From positions 1 to 35,570 of the forward strand of contig JADFOP010000019.1 in the NCBI GenBank assembly GCA_022562795.1: 35,570 nt of DNA, given 5' to 3'. The translations under genes and the position numbers were made by a program. This DNA comes from Nitrospinota bacterium. GTDB taxonomy: Bacteria; JADFOP01. Below are positions 1,896 through 7,259 of the stretch, piece after piece. The first letter of the stretch is position 1, and each line of letters starts with the position of its first letter. The notes below the pieces were generated by a model, which worked only from the letters and a program-made list of their open reading frames with translations, was not told where the DNA came from and searched no databases.

Positions 1896-4226
1896 TCAGG
1901 CGGGCGGCGGAGCGGAGCGGACGAGGACTTCTCGGGGCTTCACCCCGTCGGTGGGCCCGACGATGCCCTCGCGCTCCATGATATCGATCATCCGCGCGGC
2001 CCGGTTATAGCCGACCCGCATCCGACGCTGAATCATGCTGATCGAGGCCTGGCCCGTCTTCGCCACCATGGCCACGGCTTCCTCGTACTTCTCGTCCAGC
2101 TCCCAGTCGTCTTCGGACTCGCCACCTTCATCCTCGATAGCGGGGGTGAGGAGTGTATCGTCGTAGACGGGTTGGGCCTGCTTCTTGAGCATCTCGGCCA
2201 CCCGCTGGACCTCATCCTCCGAGATGTAGGCACCGTGGATGCGGGTCACCTTGCTCGTCCCGGGCGGGAGAAAGAGGAGGTCGCCCTTGCCGAGCAGCAG
2301 CTCGGCGCCGTTGCGGTCAATGATTGTTCGGCTGTCGGTCTTGCTGGAGACCTTGTAGGCGATGCGCGAGGGGAAGTTGGCTTTGATGATGCCGGTCAGC
2401 ACATCCACGCTCGGCCGCTGGGTGGCCAACAGGAGGTGGATGCCAGCGGCCCGGGCCATCTGGGCGAGTCGGGTTAGGCTGTCTTCCACCTCGCGGGAGG
2501 AGACCATCATGAGGTCGGCCAGCTCGTCGATCACTACGACTATGTAGGGGAGCTTCTCTGGAGGCTCTTCGGCCGGGGCGTCGGCCTCCCGAGCCCCGTC
2601 GCCCTCCGTCTCCGGGGCCACTCGGCCCTCCTCGACGAACTGGTTATAGCGCTCGATGCTGCGGACCCGGTGGGTCGCCAACAGCTTGTAACGGCGCTCC
2701 ATCTCGTGGACTATGTTGCGCAGCACCCGGGCGGCCTGCTTGGGGTCGGTCACCACCGGGGCAAGTAGATGAGGGATGCCATCGTAGGCCGAAAGCTCCA
2801 GCCGCTTCGGGTCGATAAGGACGAACTTGACCTCGTCGGGCCGCGCCCGGTAGAGCAGGCTCGTTATTACCCCGTTGAGCCCGACGCTCTTGCCGCTGCC
2901 CGTGGCCCCGGCGATTAGCAGGTGGGGGATGGCGGCCAGGTCCGTCACAGCCGGGTTGCCCAGGATGTCCTTGCCCAGGGCTACGGCCAAGGGTGAGGGG
3001 TGCTCGCGGAACTTTCGTGAGGCGAGAACGTCCCTTAAGACCACCGGCTCCCGCGCCACGTTGGGAATTTCAATACCGACGACCGCCTTGCCCGGCACGG
3101 GGGCCACGATGCGCACACTCACGGCCCTCATCACAAGGGCCAGATCGTCGGTCAGGTTTATAATTTTACTCACTTTGACCCCGCTGGCCGGTTCGAACTC
3201 GTACATGGTGACGACTGGGCCCGGCAATACCTGGGTCACCCGACCCTCCACCCCAAAGTCCCTAAGCTTCATCTCCAGAATCTCGGCACGCTTTAGCAGG
3301 TCCTCTTGGATTTGTTCCACCTCAATTGCCGGAGGCTCGTCCAGGAGGGACAGGGGTGGAAACTTCCAGGCCCGAGGGCTTCGGGAGAAATCCAGGGAGG
3401 GCTGTCGCGGCTCTCTCGCTTTTGTCCTGCCGCTCGGATCGCTCAAACCGAGCTCTTTTTCGTCAAGGTAGATAACCTGCGGCTCGATCCCCGCAACGAC
3501 GGCGTCCTCCTCAGCCTCGACGTCGGCGGAGCGGCCCCAGAGTCGTTGGCGCCGCGGCTCCGACAGGGTGACCTCTGGGCGGGCGGCCCTGGTTTTCCAA
3601 CTCCAACGGGGGAGCTTCACTTTTTTCGCGGAGGCGACCATGAGGCTCCAGAGGCTCTTCAGTCCAGACAGCGTCGTCATGGCAATTCCCGAGACGGTCG
3701 CTTGGGTCACCAGAAGGAAAGCAATTACGAGCATAGAGCCGGCTACGATGGTCGCCCCCGCGGTATTGAGAATGCTGGAGAGGCCGTGGGCAACGGCATA
3801 GCCTACGGCCCCTCCGGCGGGCACGCCCGCCATGAGGTCGTCAAAGTATGGGTCCGAGGTCAGATATAGATTAAGCAGCGCCGTGCCGGCCGCGAGCAGG
3901 CCCGCCCCTCCCAGCAGCGTCCATTGGAGCCGGGCGGGCTGCGTGCGGCGAAAGAGCTTGACAGCACAGGCCGCGAGCAAGAGGGGCAGGACAAAGGCGC
4001 CTACCCCGAATGTCTGGGCGAGGGCGTCGGCCAGGTAGGCTCCAACCCGTCCGCCCTGATTACGCCAGACCAAAGGCGTAAGCTCCAGCCCTCCCCAGGC
4101 GGTGTTGAGCGAAGGGTCGCCCGGATGGTAGGAGGCGAGGCTGACAACGGCGAATGCGGCCCCTGCGAGGCAGATCACCGCCATGCTTTCTCGTAGGATA
4201 CGATTTAGAGAGAAGACGCCCACCAC
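1896..4226 (-). CDS. ftsK: DNA translocase FtsK/SpoIIIE
   Basis: The product (776 residues) is a hexameric, membrane-anchored ATPase that pumps DNA through the closing division septum and activates XerCD recombination at dif. The N-terminal 190 residues or so contain about four membrane helices. A short charged linker follows, then the motor: Walker A GATGSGKS near residue 438, Walker B IVVVIDELADLMM near residue 560, and the RNGAELLLGKGDLLF stretch. The C-terminal gamma winged-helix domain (about 705-770, with GYNRAARMIDIMEREGIVG) reads KOPS sequences. The linker is short compared with E. coli FtsK, giving a SpoIIIE-like size. The start codon is GTG with a second GTG after it; a GGGAG motif lies a few bases upstream. 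The gene is complete with all motor motifs present. Confidence 0.96.
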   Translation of the reverse strand: MVGVFSLNRILRESMAVICLAGAAFAVVSLASYHPGDPSLNTAWGGLELTPLVWRNQGGRVGAYLADALAQTFGVGAFVLPLLLAACAVKLFRRTQPARLQWTLLGGAGLLAAGTALLNLYLTSDPYFDDLMAGVPAGGAVGYAVAHGLSSILNTAGATIVAGSMLVIAFLLVTQATVSGIAMTTLSGLKSLWSLMVASAKKVKLPRWSWKTRAARPEVTLSEPRRQRLWGRSADVEAEEDAVVAGIEPQVIYLDEKELGLSDPSGRTKAREPRQPSLDFSRSPRAWKFPPLSLLDEPPAIEVEQIQEDLLKRAEILEMKLRDFGVEGRVTQVLPGPVVTMYEFEPASGVKVSKIINLTDDLALVMRAVSVRIVAPVPGKAVVGIEIPNVAREPVVLRDVLASRKFREHPSPLAVALGKDILGNPAVTDLAAIPHLLIAGATGSGKSVGLNGVITSLLYRARPDEVKFVLIDPKRLELSAYDGIPHLLAPVVTDPKQAARVLRNIVHEMERRYKLLATHRVRSIERYNQFVEEGRVAPETEGDGAREADAPAEEPPEKLPYIVVVIDELADLMMVSSREVEDSLTRLAQMARAAGIHLLLATQRPSVDVLTGIIKANFPSRIAYKVSSKTDSRTIIDRNGAELLLGKGDLLFLPPGTSKVTRIHGAYISEDEVQRVAEMLKKQAQPVYDDTLLTPAIEDEGGESEDDWELDEKYEEAVAMVAKTGQASISMIQRRMRVGYNRAARMIDIMEREGIVGPTDGVKPREVLVRSAPPPA

Positions 4227-4306
4227 AGGGCTCCCTGCCCTGGGCCCGTGGGCATGAACGCGAACCTACTATCTATATACCATGATAAAAGGGAGTTGGC
4301 AAGTGT

Positions 4307-4378
4307 TTATTGAAGGAGTTTCTTAAAGACGTTCTCAATATCCACGTAATTGCTCGGAAGAAAAAATTTAGAGGCCGG
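4307..4378 (-). pseudogene. Remnant copy of part of the sigma-54 regulator gene
   Basis: Reading minus from 4378 to the TAA at 4307-4309, one frame encodes PASKFFLPSNYVDIENVF followed by KKLLQ and stop. The intact regulator (gene at 4953-7259) has ASRFALPSEGVDIENVF followed by RELIVQALDR, encoded at 5076-5126. The 17-residue blocks align without gaps with 13 identities, including VDIENVF and LPS at the same spacing. The match covers the linker just before the Fis helix-turn-helix; the helix-turn-helix itself is missing because of the stop. It lies on the same strand just past the pilin gene, so it looks like a decayed tandem duplicate. Part of the pilin terminator is formed from this sequence. 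There is no start codon or ribosome-binding site, so it is not expected to be translated. Confidence 0.7.
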
Positions 4379-4408
4379 AAACCAGGAGGATGAAGAGCCT
4401 CCGGCCTC
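4360..4408 (-). terminator. Rho-independent terminator of the flp pilin gene
   Basis: On the minus strand, GAGGCCGG (4401-4408) pairs perfectly with CCGGCCTC (4371-4378), followed at once by TAAATTTTTTCTT. The loop is long (22 bases), but an alternative inner pairing CCTCC/GGAGG could shorten it. It begins 33 bases past the pilin stop codon. The right arm and the T-run fall inside the regulator-gene remnant. Confidence 0.75.
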
Positions 4409-4441
4409 TCCCCGAGCGCTGCGTAGCGCCAATCGTTTCGA

Positions 4442-4624
4442 TTAGCTCGATGGCGAAACCATAGAGCTGAGCTGGTTGTCAAAGTTTCCGAAGACGCCGT
4501 TCAACGTTACACCAATACTCTGCACGGTCAGAATGATGACGGCCGCTATTAGGCCAATCAGGAGGGCATACTCAGTGGCCGTCGCTCCATCTTGATCGTT
4601 CATGAACATCTTGAGGTGCTTCAA
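4442..4624 (-). CDS. flp: Flp/Fap family type IVb pilin
   Basis: This is a 60-residue pilin precursor. It has a short charged leader, then the class IVb signature DGATATEYALLIGLIAAVI: a prepilin peptidase (TadV-like) should cut just before the hydrophobic helix with its conserved Glu-Tyr pair. The tail is short and ends SSMVSPSS. Mature subunits would assemble into Flp (Tad) pili used for adhesion. The start is TTG at 4622-4624, supported by an excellent ribosome-binding site (AAGGAGGG at 4633-4640, 8 bases away); the internal ATG codons have none. A sigma-54 promoter lies about 100 bases upstream and a terminator follows, so the gene appears to be monocistronic. No tad assembly genes are in this window. 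Confidence 0.92.
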   Translation of the reverse strand: MKHLKMFMNDQDGATATEYALLIGLIAAVIILTVQSIGVTLNGVFGNFDNQLSSMVSPSS

Positions 4625-4632
4625 CTTGGCGT

Positions 4633-4640
4633 CCCTCCTT
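4633..4640 (-). promoter_or_regulatory. Ribosome-binding site that sets the TTG start of flp
   Basis: On the minus strand AAGGAGGG lies 8 bases before the TTG at 4624. This near-perfect Shine-Dalgarno sequence makes TTG the start codon in preference to the in-frame ATG codons a few residues inside. Confidence 0.85.
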
Positions 4641-4738
4641 CCATAGCCGGTTGCGCGATTTTGCTACCGAAAGGGCGCGGGTTCCCCTAAGATACCCACC
4701 CTTTTCCCGATAGACTGGGCTTTTCGACTACTGAATTT

Positions 4739-4754
4739 TGCAAGGCTCGTGCCA
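4739..4754 (-). promoter_or_regulatory. Sigma-54 (RpoN) promoter of flp
   Basis: The minus strand reads TGGCACGAGCCTTGCA, an exact fit to the sigma-54 consensus TGGCACG-N4-TTGCA, with the invariant GG (-24) and GC (-12) correctly spaced. The predicted start of transcription is near 4728, leaving a leader of about 100 bases before the flp start codon. The neighbouring upstream gene encodes a sigma-54 activator, which is the obvious candidate to work here. Confidence 0.9.
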
Positions 4755-4830
4755 CGCCTGGCCCTTGCCTTCCATATCATCGTACCGTCATGAGTACAGC
4801 CTTGGAACTGGTTGATAATAAAGTGGAAAG

Positions 4831-4840
4831 GCCATATGGC
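4831..4840. promoter_or_regulatory. Candidate upstream activator site (palindrome)
   Basis: GCCATATGGC is a perfect 10-bp palindrome about 80 bases upstream of the sigma-54 promoter of flp, a position where enhancer-binding proteins often sit. That it is the binding site of the adjacent regulator is an inference. The rest of the 328-bp gap between flp and the regulator (4625-4952) shows only the promoter and ribosome-binding site; a plus-strand open frame from 4790 looks spurious. Confidence 0.35.
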
Positions 4841-4952
4841 TGGCGGCGCAAGGCCCCTCAATTCATAAAAGATCCAATTTTGGTTGGAGGTGGGTTTTTA
4901 CCTTATCACAATCAGCTTGAGGATTTGATCAAAGGCCTCTACTTGCGAACTC

Positions 4953-7259
4953 CTAGCTCTTCAGGCCGTATTTCTCCATTCGGTATCGGAAGGTGGGCAG
5001 AGAGATGCTCAGCAGGCGGGCGGCCTTTGACTGGTTGTATTCGGTTCTGTCGAGGGCTTGAACGATGAGCTCCCTGAAGACGTTTTCAATATCAACGCCC
5101 TCGCTGGGTAGAGCGAAGCGAGAGGCCGAGTCGTTCCCGTCGGGCCGGCTCGCCTCCAGAAACGCCAGATGCTCGACCCTCACCTCGGAATCCTCCTCGT
5201 AGAGCACCACCCGCTCGATCGCGTTCCTCATCTCCCGAACGTTGCCCTTCCACGGGTAGGAAAGCAGACGAGACTCCACCTCCCGGCTGATACTTTCAAA
5301 GGACTTGCCGTACTCCTGGTTGAACTCCTTGAGGAAACTCTGGGCCATTGGCAAAATATCCTCGGCCCGCTCCCTAAGCGGCGGCAGATGAATGTGGGCC
5401 ACGTTCAAACGGTAGAAAAGGTCCTCCCGGAAGGAGCCTTCCGAGACGGCCGACTTTAGATCGCGGTTCGTCGCCGCAATGACCCGAACATCGGCTTGCA
5501 CCTCCCGGTTGGAACCCACAGGGTAGAAGGGCTGGCCGTCGAGTATCCGCAGCAGCACCGTCTGGGCCCCAGCAGGAAGCTCCGAAATCTCATCAAGAAA
5601 GAGGGTCCCCTTGTGAGCCAACTCCACCTTGCCCTTCTTGCCGCCCGTGACCGCCCCAGTGAAGGCCCCCTTAGCGTAGCCCAATAGCTCGGCCTCCATC
5701 AGATCCTTCGGGATAGCACCGCAGTTGACCACCACGAGCGGCTGATCGAACCGGGGGCTCGAGCGGTGGATGGCTCGGGCCACCAGCTCTTTACCCGTCC
5801 CCGTCTCGCCCGTGATAAGCACCGTCGCACGGTCGGCACGACCGAGGGTTCCAGCGAGCTCGAAAACCTCCATCATCGAGGGACTGGCCACAATCACGTC
5901 CCCCTGGACGTAATGATCTTGGCTCAAGCTAACCCGATTCCGCCCACCCCGCTTAGCGGCGTCCAGGGAACACTCAGCCGCCGCGAGCAAATCCTTCGCA
6001 TTCATGTCCGAGCCGGGAGTGTACGGGACAACCCCGATGGAGACCGTCAGGCGAATCGAACGGCTACCAAGGGAGAGATCGAAGGCCTCAACCTCTTTCC
6101 GCAGACGCTCGGCCACAATCATGGCACCCTCGCAATCGGTATGGGGCAGGATAACCACCAACTCCTCGCCTTTATACCGAGCTACGGTGTCCATTTGCCG
6201 GGCGGTCCGGGCAACGAGGCCAGTGACAGCCTTAAGGCAGGCTTCTCCTCCCTTCTCGCCGTGGGTGTCTTTCACCGACTTGATGTGGTCAACCTCTAGC
6301 AGCATAAGGGACAAGGGAGTGTTGTAGCGCGCCGCGCGTTGAAACTCCTCCTCCAGCTTTGAGGTGAAGTGGCCCAGATTGCAGGACTTGGGCGAGGAAT
6401 TGTCTGGGGCCCGAGCCTCCGGCTTATCATCCATTTCCTTGCTGTCCCGCAGATCCTTGTTTGTACTGACCGTCCCCACTTCGCACCCATTCTGGTCGAA
6501 GAGGATGGACGAGGAGGCCGAAACTGGAATGAGACTGCCGTCCTTCGCCCGAAGCATGGTTTCGAATCCAGCCAGGCTATCACCGTTTCGACGCATCTGG
6601 CTCATCAGCTCTTCGGCCCGCTCCTCACTCTCGTACAGCTCCGCAACATATCCCCCTATAATTTCATCCCGCCTATACCCCAATAGAGTTTCAGCGCCCT
6701 TGTTGAAGCGGACCACTTTTCCCTCACAATCCGCCGCAATGATGGCGTCTGCAAAGCTTTCGATGAGGCTTTCTATATACTGCTTCGTTTGCTGCAACTC
6801 GACGTGGAATTGCTGGAGAGCACGGTCGGCCTGCTTGCGCTCGATGGCGTACCGGATGGATCGCTTTAGGAAGTTGGCGTCCCCCTGCCCTCTAATTAGG
6901 TGCTCCTGCGCCCCATTCCGCACCGCCTCAAGGGCAAACTCCTCATCGGCGGGGTCACCCATAACAACAAGAGGCACGTCAGGAGCCACATTATGAACTT
7001 TGGCAACCGCACCCAGGCCACTAGAGTCCGGCAGCGAAACGCTCAGCAGGACAACATCGAAATTCCCATTACCGAGGGATTTCGATGCTTCGCTCAGCCG
7101 CCCGGCATGCAGAACTTCGAATTGAGCCGAACCTTCTTCATCCAACATCTCCCGGATCGAGCGGGCCTCTTCCGCGTTTTCCTCGACCAATAAAACCTTG
7201 ATAAGTTTATCGCTCATATTTCTCATTAAGGCCGCAATCATTCGACGCTCGACCAACAT
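4953..7259 (-). CDS. Sigma-54-dependent regulator with REC, PAS, GGDEF, AAA+ and Fis-HTH domains
   Basis: The 768-residue product is an enhancer-binding activator of RpoN promoters. Domain order: receiver (about 20-140), PAS (about 155-275), GGDEF (about 300-450), AAA+ sigma-54 interaction (about 460-690) with Walker A GETGTGKE and the sigma-54-contacting GAFTGA loop near 530, then a Fis-type helix-turn-helix at the C-terminus (YNQSKAARLLSISLPTFRYR). Two signature sites are changed. In the receiver, the phospho-acceptor position in VVLLSVSLPD is Ser73 instead of Asp, while the acidic pair E26-E27 is kept. In the GGDEF domain the catalytic loop reads RYKGEEL instead of RYGGDEF. Phosphorylation and diguanylate synthesis are therefore both doubtful, and control may come from PAS ligand or nucleotide binding. 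The Met at codon 15 (7217), just before the receiver, may be the true start. It is the likely activator of flp. Confidence 0.93.
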   Translation of the reverse strand: MLVERRMIAALMRNMSDKLIKVLLVEENAEEARSIREMLDEEGSAQFEVLHAGRLSEASKSLGNGNFDVVLLSVSLPDSSGLGAVAKVHNVAPDVPLVVMGDPADEEFALEAVRNGAQEHLIRGQGDANFLKRSIRYAIERKQADRALQQFHVELQQTKQYIESLIESFADAIIAADCEGKVVRFNKGAETLLGYRRDEIIGGYVAELYESEERAEELMSQMRRNGDSLAGFETMLRAKDGSLIPVSASSSILFDQNGCEVGTVSTNKDLRDSKEMDDKPEARAPDNSSPKSCNLGHFTSKLEEEFQRAARYNTPLSLMLLEVDHIKSVKDTHGEKGGEACLKAVTGLVARTARQMDTVARYKGEELVVILPHTDCEGAMIVAERLRKEVEAFDLSLGSRSIRLTVSIGVVPYTPGSDMNAKDLLAAAECSLDAAKRGGRNRVSLSQDHYVQGDVIVASPSMMEVFELAGTLGRADRATVLITGETGTGKELVARAIHRSSPRFDQPLVVVNCGAIPKDLMEAELLGYAKGAFTGAVTGGKKGKVELAHKGTLFLDEISELPAGAQTVLLRILDGQPFYPVGSNREVQADVRVIAATNRDLKSAVSEGSFREDLFYRLNVAHIHLPPLRERAEDILPMAQSFLKEFNQEYGKSFESISREVESRLLSYPWKGNVREMRNAIERVVLYEEDSEVRVEHLAFLEASRPDGNDSASRFALPSEGVDIENVFRELIVQALDRTEYNQSKAARLLSISLPTFRYRMEKYGLKS

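Follow-up and report, generated by a model that had tools for sequence, protein, structure and literature searches.

A lone gene for a type IVb (Flp/Fap) prepilin, with a sigma-54 promoter ahead of it and a gene for an enhancer-binding protein (EBP) beside it, raises the question of whether this regulator serves that single pilin gene or whether the locus belongs to a larger circuit. We analyzed the window, i.e., the whole stretch of 35,570 nucleotides (contig C19), together with the rest of its 2.15-Mb genome; genome-wide scans were pattern searches. The reading that we prefer, with a probability of roughly 0.7, is that this locus belongs to a sigma-54-dependent flp regulon with a shared enhancer, an IHF bend, a monocistronic flp message, and tad assembly machinery encoded elsewhere.

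The flp gene and its promoter

The elements of the flp unit are as follows.

4739-4754, minus strand: sigma-54 (-24/-12) promoter TGGCACGAGCCTTGCA (pattern match; aligned with five other promoters of the genome)
4633-4640, minus strand: ribosome-binding site AAGGAGGG (sequence reading; similar AGGAGG/AGGAAGG sequences in paralogues)
4442-4624, minus strand: flp, type IVb (Flp/Fap) prepilin of 60 amino acids with a TTG start and a GATATEY cleavage-site motif (ORF and Pfam)
4361-4409, minus strand: intrinsic terminator hairpin with T tract, predicted to end the flp transcript (fold of -44.3 kcal/mol, z = -3.9)
4307-4375, minus strand: remnant resembling the linker and Fis start of the activator, ASKFFLPSNYVDIENVFKKLLQ (similarity to the activator)

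The 4442-4624 gene was assigned to the Flp/Fap family on account of its above-cut-off match to the Pfam family Flp_Fap (6e-14, 52 bits; cut-off, 32.2) and of the GATATEY sequence, a motif of the G/xxxxEY type. Genes for tad assembly are also present in the genome, on contigs C31 and C10. Minus-strand positions 4754 to 4739 read TGGCACGAGCCTTGCA, which fits the sigma-54 (-24/-12) consensus TGGCACGNNNNTTGCW exactly, with the -24 GG and the -12 GC located within TGGCACG-N4-TTGCW. In the entire genome, seven exact sites were found, compared to one match to the reversed control pattern, and RpoN is encoded on C4 (E = 9e-61). The sequence evidence argues that the promoter ahead of this flp gene is real. 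The initial annotation had described an exact consensus about 100 bases ahead of flp, a transcript start expected near 4728, and a ribosome-binding site with a TTG start codon, and all three descriptions agree with the sequence: (i) TGGCACGNNNNTTGCW has its sole exact match in the window at 4739-4754, approximately 105 bp from the flp start; (ii) the predicted +1 near 4728 agrees with the position of the -12 GC at 4741-4740; and (iii) GGAGG at 4634-4638 precedes the TTG, which aligns with the ATG of the paralogues on C31 and C10.

Because a strong terminator hairpin follows the gene, the flp message is probably monocistronic. An Rfam search of the flp leader returned no riboswitch or known RNA. 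The leaders of this gene (4625-4738, minus strand) and of the flp genes on C31, C10, and C75 have a CCCTT stretch in common. Pairing between it and the ribosome-binding site could occur and might control translation; both the shared fold and the covariation are weak. Elsewhere in the window, the gaps scanned ahead of the exopolysaccharide genes from 9543 on contained only poor matches to sigma-54 sites.

A common promoter layout in the flp family of the genome

Seven flp genes were found in the genome, six over the curated cut-off and one, on C4, just under it. A sigma-54-type site is located ahead of six of them (C19 [the window], C31, C10, C75, C78, and C4), and none was seen before the seventh, on C30. 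The flp promoters account for three of the seven exact sites of the genome; another is found at glnB-glnA, a textbook sigma-54 target. By aligning the flp upstream regions, we found a 16-bp motif, CTTTGAKCAWATCMTC, with a core palindrome. The upstream elements in the window are the following.

4919-4934, minus strand: enhancer-like motif CTTTGATCAAATCCTC with core palindrome TTTGATCAAA, predicted activator site 180 bp upstream of the promoter
4804-4818, minus strand: IHF-like site TTATCAACCAGTTCC, 64 bp upstream of the promoter

A number of features characterize this arrangement. (i) With at most one mismatch, CTTTGAKCAWATCMTC is present at six places in 2.15 Mb, each 180 to 182 bp upstream of a sigma-54 site and in the same orientation. 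The sixth place, on C54, is independent of the derivation of the motif; this contig stops just past the promoter, and the downstream gene lies off the contig. (ii) Among the six promoters, 12 of the 16 motif columns are invariant, compared to 35 of 144 in the rest of the interval. (iii) Between the enhancer motif and the promoter, an IHF-like site was found in all six cases, its distance from the promoter being 63 to 65 bp; the match to WATCAANNNNTTR is complete at three of these sites, and the window copy has one mismatch. The genome contains four HU/IHF-family genes. The C4 flp gene has a sigma-54 promoter without the CTTTGAKCAWATCMTC enhancer. The sequence of enhancer, IHF bend, and sigma-54 site is the usual layout, and the six promoters show it, with binding at the first two elements being predicted. 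Since the six cassettes are related by duplication (closely so for C19, C75, and C54), their conservation partly reflects ancestry, although a spacing that stays fixed while the filler varies speaks for function. The Flp genes of this uncultured bacterium thus have at least six near-identical predicted sigma-54 switches.

The C31 flp gene, which has the same promoter type, is the first gene of a complete tad operon encoding a prepilin peptidase, CpaB, TadZ, TadA, TadB, and TadC; these genes were assigned by their order and by sequence reading, and TadA was confirmed by HMM. On contig C10, flp is accompanied by TadE-like genes and a divergently oriented secretin gene. In C31 and C10, the TadA-family ATPase, the secretin, and the TadE-like genes have HMM support. 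Since the tad genes of C31 and C10 provide the genome with a full set of assembly genes, the lone flp gene is an additional copy. Its description as lying outside a tad operon is correct for the window copy and does not hold generally, since the C31 copy with the same promoter heads such an operon.

Two further observations concern the surroundings of the cassettes. Several TadE/G-like proteins are encoded beside flp cassettes and one activator paralogue (L046:8621-13257, L200:273-674, and L052:4383-5693); some of them have DUF7305 or ice-binding-like C-terminal domains and are possible pilus-associated adhesins. In addition, degraded copies of the ftsK start and its upstream region (window 4017-4325) are located beside the kinase gene on C31 and before the secretin gene on C10 (L045:10085-10387 and L046:14520-14607), which suggests that adjoining ftsK sequence was carried along as the flp cassettes spread.

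The adjacent activator and the alternative explanations

The activator gene comprises the following segments.

4953-7259, minus strand: sigma-54 activator (bEBP) of 768 amino acids, receiver-PAS-GGDEF-AAA+-HTH_8 (Pfam)
6894-7196, minus strand: pseudo-receiver with the phospho-acceptor Asp changed to Ser73 (Pfam and alignment)
6444-6776, minus strand: PAS domain (Pfam and identity to kinase PAS)
5934-6374, minus strand: degenerate GGDEF domain with K363-GEEL and I-site R354-QM-D357 (Pfam and alignment)
5484-5610, no strand: 127 bp equal to the terminal bases of contig C82, probably marking a fork in the assembly graph (sequence identity)
5163-5894, minus strand: AAA+ sigma-54 interaction domain and lid, with Walker A at residues 484-491 and GAFTGA at 531-536 (Pfam and residues)
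4968-5075, minus strand: Fis-type HTH_8 (Pfam)

Its matches to the Pfam families Sigma54_activat, AAA lid, and HTH_8, along with GAFTGA, support the earlier identification of the next gene upstream of flp as a sigma-54 activator, and the Walker A motif, the GAFTGA loop, and the Fis-type HTH assign it to the NtrC family of bEBPs. Because Walker A and GAFTGA are present, the protein should remodel sigma-54 polymerase. It does not qualify as a response regulator, as the phospho-acceptor aspartate is replaced: Ser73 in its VVLLSVSLPD segment aligns with the NtrC-family VVLLDLLLPD. The PAS domain shares 47 to 60% identity with the PAS domains of kinases encoded on C31, C75, and C43 and, in the same-genus genome G001, on C33, and kinases sharing this PAS type stand beside flp genes or related activators. 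Control of flp via sigma-54 by the adjacent activator or a close relative of it is well supported. The initial annotation had missed the odd domains of the activator as well as the promoter family, the enhancer motif, and the IHF-like site.

The GGDEF domain is recognized by Pfam over its whole length (E = 1e-31). In an alignment with WspR and other cyclases, KGEEL replaces GGEEF, and on the substrate side, N is changed to K, H to E, and D to E. With its A-site and substrate residues altered in this way, the domain lacks the signature of an active cyclase, and the I-site RxxD, five residues before the A-site, is intact (R354-Q-M-D357). Signalling by c-di-GMP is present in this bacterium, since genes for a canonical GGEEF cyclase and for three PilZ proteins are found in its genome. 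Judging from a few residues, the domain is catalytically degenerate and may read c-di-GMP through its I-site. With the PAS domain and the AAA+/Fis output of the flp-linked two-component systems, and with a receiver that cannot be phosphorylated at the usual position, the activator resembles a one-component form of these systems, possibly one that senses c-di-GMP. A more specific proposal, which we advance tentatively, combines a kinase PAS with the AAA+ and Fis parts of a regulator in a one-component sigma-54 activator whose inactive GGDEF is a c-di-GMP receptor, the enhancer common to most flp promoters integrating kinase signals and c-di-GMP. The chances are close to even that the GGDEF domain instead works as a diguanylate cyclase or does no more than link its neighbors structurally, which would be compatible with the regulon reading. 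The strong whole-domain match and the conserved EE of the motif are in line with such a role, and the retained RxxD alone proves no binding; against it, the first Gly has become Lys and the three substrate-side residues have changed, yet RxxD is kept, and an unrelated FHA-GGDEF-EBP of genome G035 has likewise lost the motif (GRNQL) while keeping RTMD.

A second alternative concerns the identity of the flanking gene. The last 127 bases of C82 equal window positions 5484-5610 exactly, with 97% identity over 422 bp, and 127 is a common final k-mer in assembly. This identity probably marks an assembly-graph fork at which two front halves lead into one activator back half, so which activator flanks the window flp gene is less than certain. 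Contig C82 encodes a kinase and a receiver-type EBP, the AAA+ part of which, as far as present, is 92% identical to that of the window activator, and these two could be the true flp neighbors, as in Desulfovibrio, if the window joined the wrong front half at the repeat. We consider this unlikely, because the fork leaves the GGDEF-to-AAA+ join on the window side, because a paralogue on C3 has the same join, and because a second downstream half was looked for and not found. The C3 paralogue is 75% identical over the output half of the activator and begins inside a GGDEF tail; since it keeps this tail, the fusion of GGDEF to AAA+ is genuine and occurs beyond the window contig. From its position, we regard the GGDEF-AAA+ join as safe, and the front half in the window is likely linked to the Fis domain and flp.

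A decaying duplicate without present function is an improbable explanation of the lone flp unit. The remnant at 4307-4375, directly after flp on the same strand and overlapping the terminator, would by its sequence be the relic of a past duplication or rearrangement of the unit, and the absence of tad genes beside flp and the TTG start point in the same direction; set against them are the intact ORF and the presence of the cleavage motif, the ribosome-binding site, the terminator, and the full promoter architecture. Even less probable is the explanation proposed initially, a neighboring EBP dedicated to this single flp gene through the 10-bp palindrome GCCATATGGC, because, despite the adjacency of the genes and the presence of the palindrome between them (4831-4840), the palindrome retains 1 of 10 columns across the six promoters and was rejected as an operator, a different, enhancer-like motif is conserved at all six, and the output domain is shared with paralogues (AAA+ and HTH with C3, AAA+ with C82). 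This corrects the view that a lone pilin gene has a regulator of its own here.

In the regulon reading, an EBP of the subfamily of the window activator would bind the conserved enhancer at 4919-4934, 180 bp upstream of the promoter, and the DNA would be bent by IHF at 4804-4818. The AAA+ ring would then open sigma-54 polymerase at 4739-4754, and flp would be transcribed up to 4361-4409, being switched on in concert with the C31 tad operon and with other flp genes. Processing and assembly of the pilin would fall to the tad machinery of C31 and C10, with assembly by the C31 products being presumed. Members of the subfamily that belong to two-component systems would respond to kinases, and the window activator may dispense with the usual phosphorylation and take its signal from PAS and perhaps from c-di-GMP. 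An uncultured Nitrospinae-like lineage thus gains a legible pilus-control circuit in which an enhancer-IHF-promoter layout has been copied to six promoters and which includes several activators with the same output and different inputs.

Relatives and known systems

The sole same-genus genome compared was G001, Nitrospinae bacterium AH_259_B05_G02_I21, which is 100% identical to the JALLOF01 contigs and has four flp genes. The search for conservation in relatives suggested by the initial annotation had a divided outcome in this genome: the sigma-54 flp promoter is kept at a flp-receiver pair on C133, the counterpart of C4, and the EBP-flp pair of the window was not found. The latter pair is therefore without support from between-species conservation. 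The enhancer motif has only two-mismatch background matches in G001, and a sigma-54 site is located 368 bp before the annotated start of a tad secretin gene in that genome. Several sigma-54 sites recur in both genus genomes: before flp with a stand-alone receiver protein (L050:7437-8086 and L206:6430-7323), before LptC-like genes (C4:67505 and G001 C663:14973; L075 and L077), and at CBS-domain genes (C10:24648 and G001 C782:11762; L078 and L079).

Of 79 flp loci from named genomes, 13 are preceded within 420 bp by a strong sigma-54-like site, compared to none with the reversed control, and these loci belong mainly to Desulfovibrionaceae. L142, from this family, has activator, sigma-54 site, and flp in the same order as the window. 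In Desulfovibrio vulgaris, DAP-chip identified Flp-type pilin and pilus operons as targets of DVU2114 (PMC3333781), and these reappear in the sigma-54 regulome (PMC4641369). Control of Flp pili through sigma-54 is thus of a known kind, and with this precedent and the gene order of L142, the label "unusual" that the initial annotation gave to a dedicated EBP for a Flp pilin outside a tad operon is not supported; the variants here are the shared-enhancer regulon and the domain set of the activator. The DVU2114 regulon (pilin DORF39640-DVU2116 and cpa/tad genes) resembles the window in having a sigma-54 activator near a Flp-type pilin gene, and DVU2114 controls this pilin gene together with one or more further pilus operons (PMC3333781, PMC4641369). 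There are two differences: DVU2114 is a two-component response regulator, whereas the window EBP has a receiver without the aspartate, a PAS domain, and a degenerate GGDEF domain, and many flp promoters here share one enhancer motif.

Comparison can be extended to three other groups of systems. (i) In PilS/PilR, a system to which PMC3333781 also refers, sigma-54 and an enhancer-binding protein drive type IVa pilA. The window likewise has a pilin driven by sigma-54 and an EBP, but the pilin is a type IVb Flp and the EBP architecture is different. (ii) FleQ, VpsR, and FlrA are c-di-GMP-responsive EBPs with noncanonical receivers that control surface structures; they are not known to have a GGDEF domain, whereas any binding by the window EBP would occur at the GGDEF I-site. 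(iii) PelD and PopA are degenerate-GGDEF receptors with an inactive A-site and an I-site that binds c-di-GMP; unlike the window GGDEF, theirs are not known to be fused to a sigma-54 activator. A search of literature titles found no described case of a GGDEF-EBP fusion. If the GGDEF domain does bind c-di-GMP, it would connect c-di-GMP directly with the sigma-54-dependent transcription of Tad pilus genes, a domain role in sigma-54 activation for which no described case was found.

The G035 protein mentioned above (L208:4640-6475; FHA-GGDEF-AAA+-HTH_8) was the only other GGDEF-AAA+ match at a stringent cut-off among 290 varied genomes, in a search that falls short of a census since few candidates were scored in each genome. 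Like the window EBP, it has a degenerate GGDEF (GRNQL, with RTMD at the I-site position) just before the EBP AAA+ domain; it differs in that FHA replaces receiver-PAS, no flp was seen nearby, and the identity is 43%. Its gene is followed by two PilZ-like genes, making it another candidate c-di-GMP-sensing EBP. Finally, L147 and L150, on contigs labelled as methanogenic archaea, contain flp genes with perfect or near-perfect sigma-54 sites and are probably misbinned bacterial sequences.
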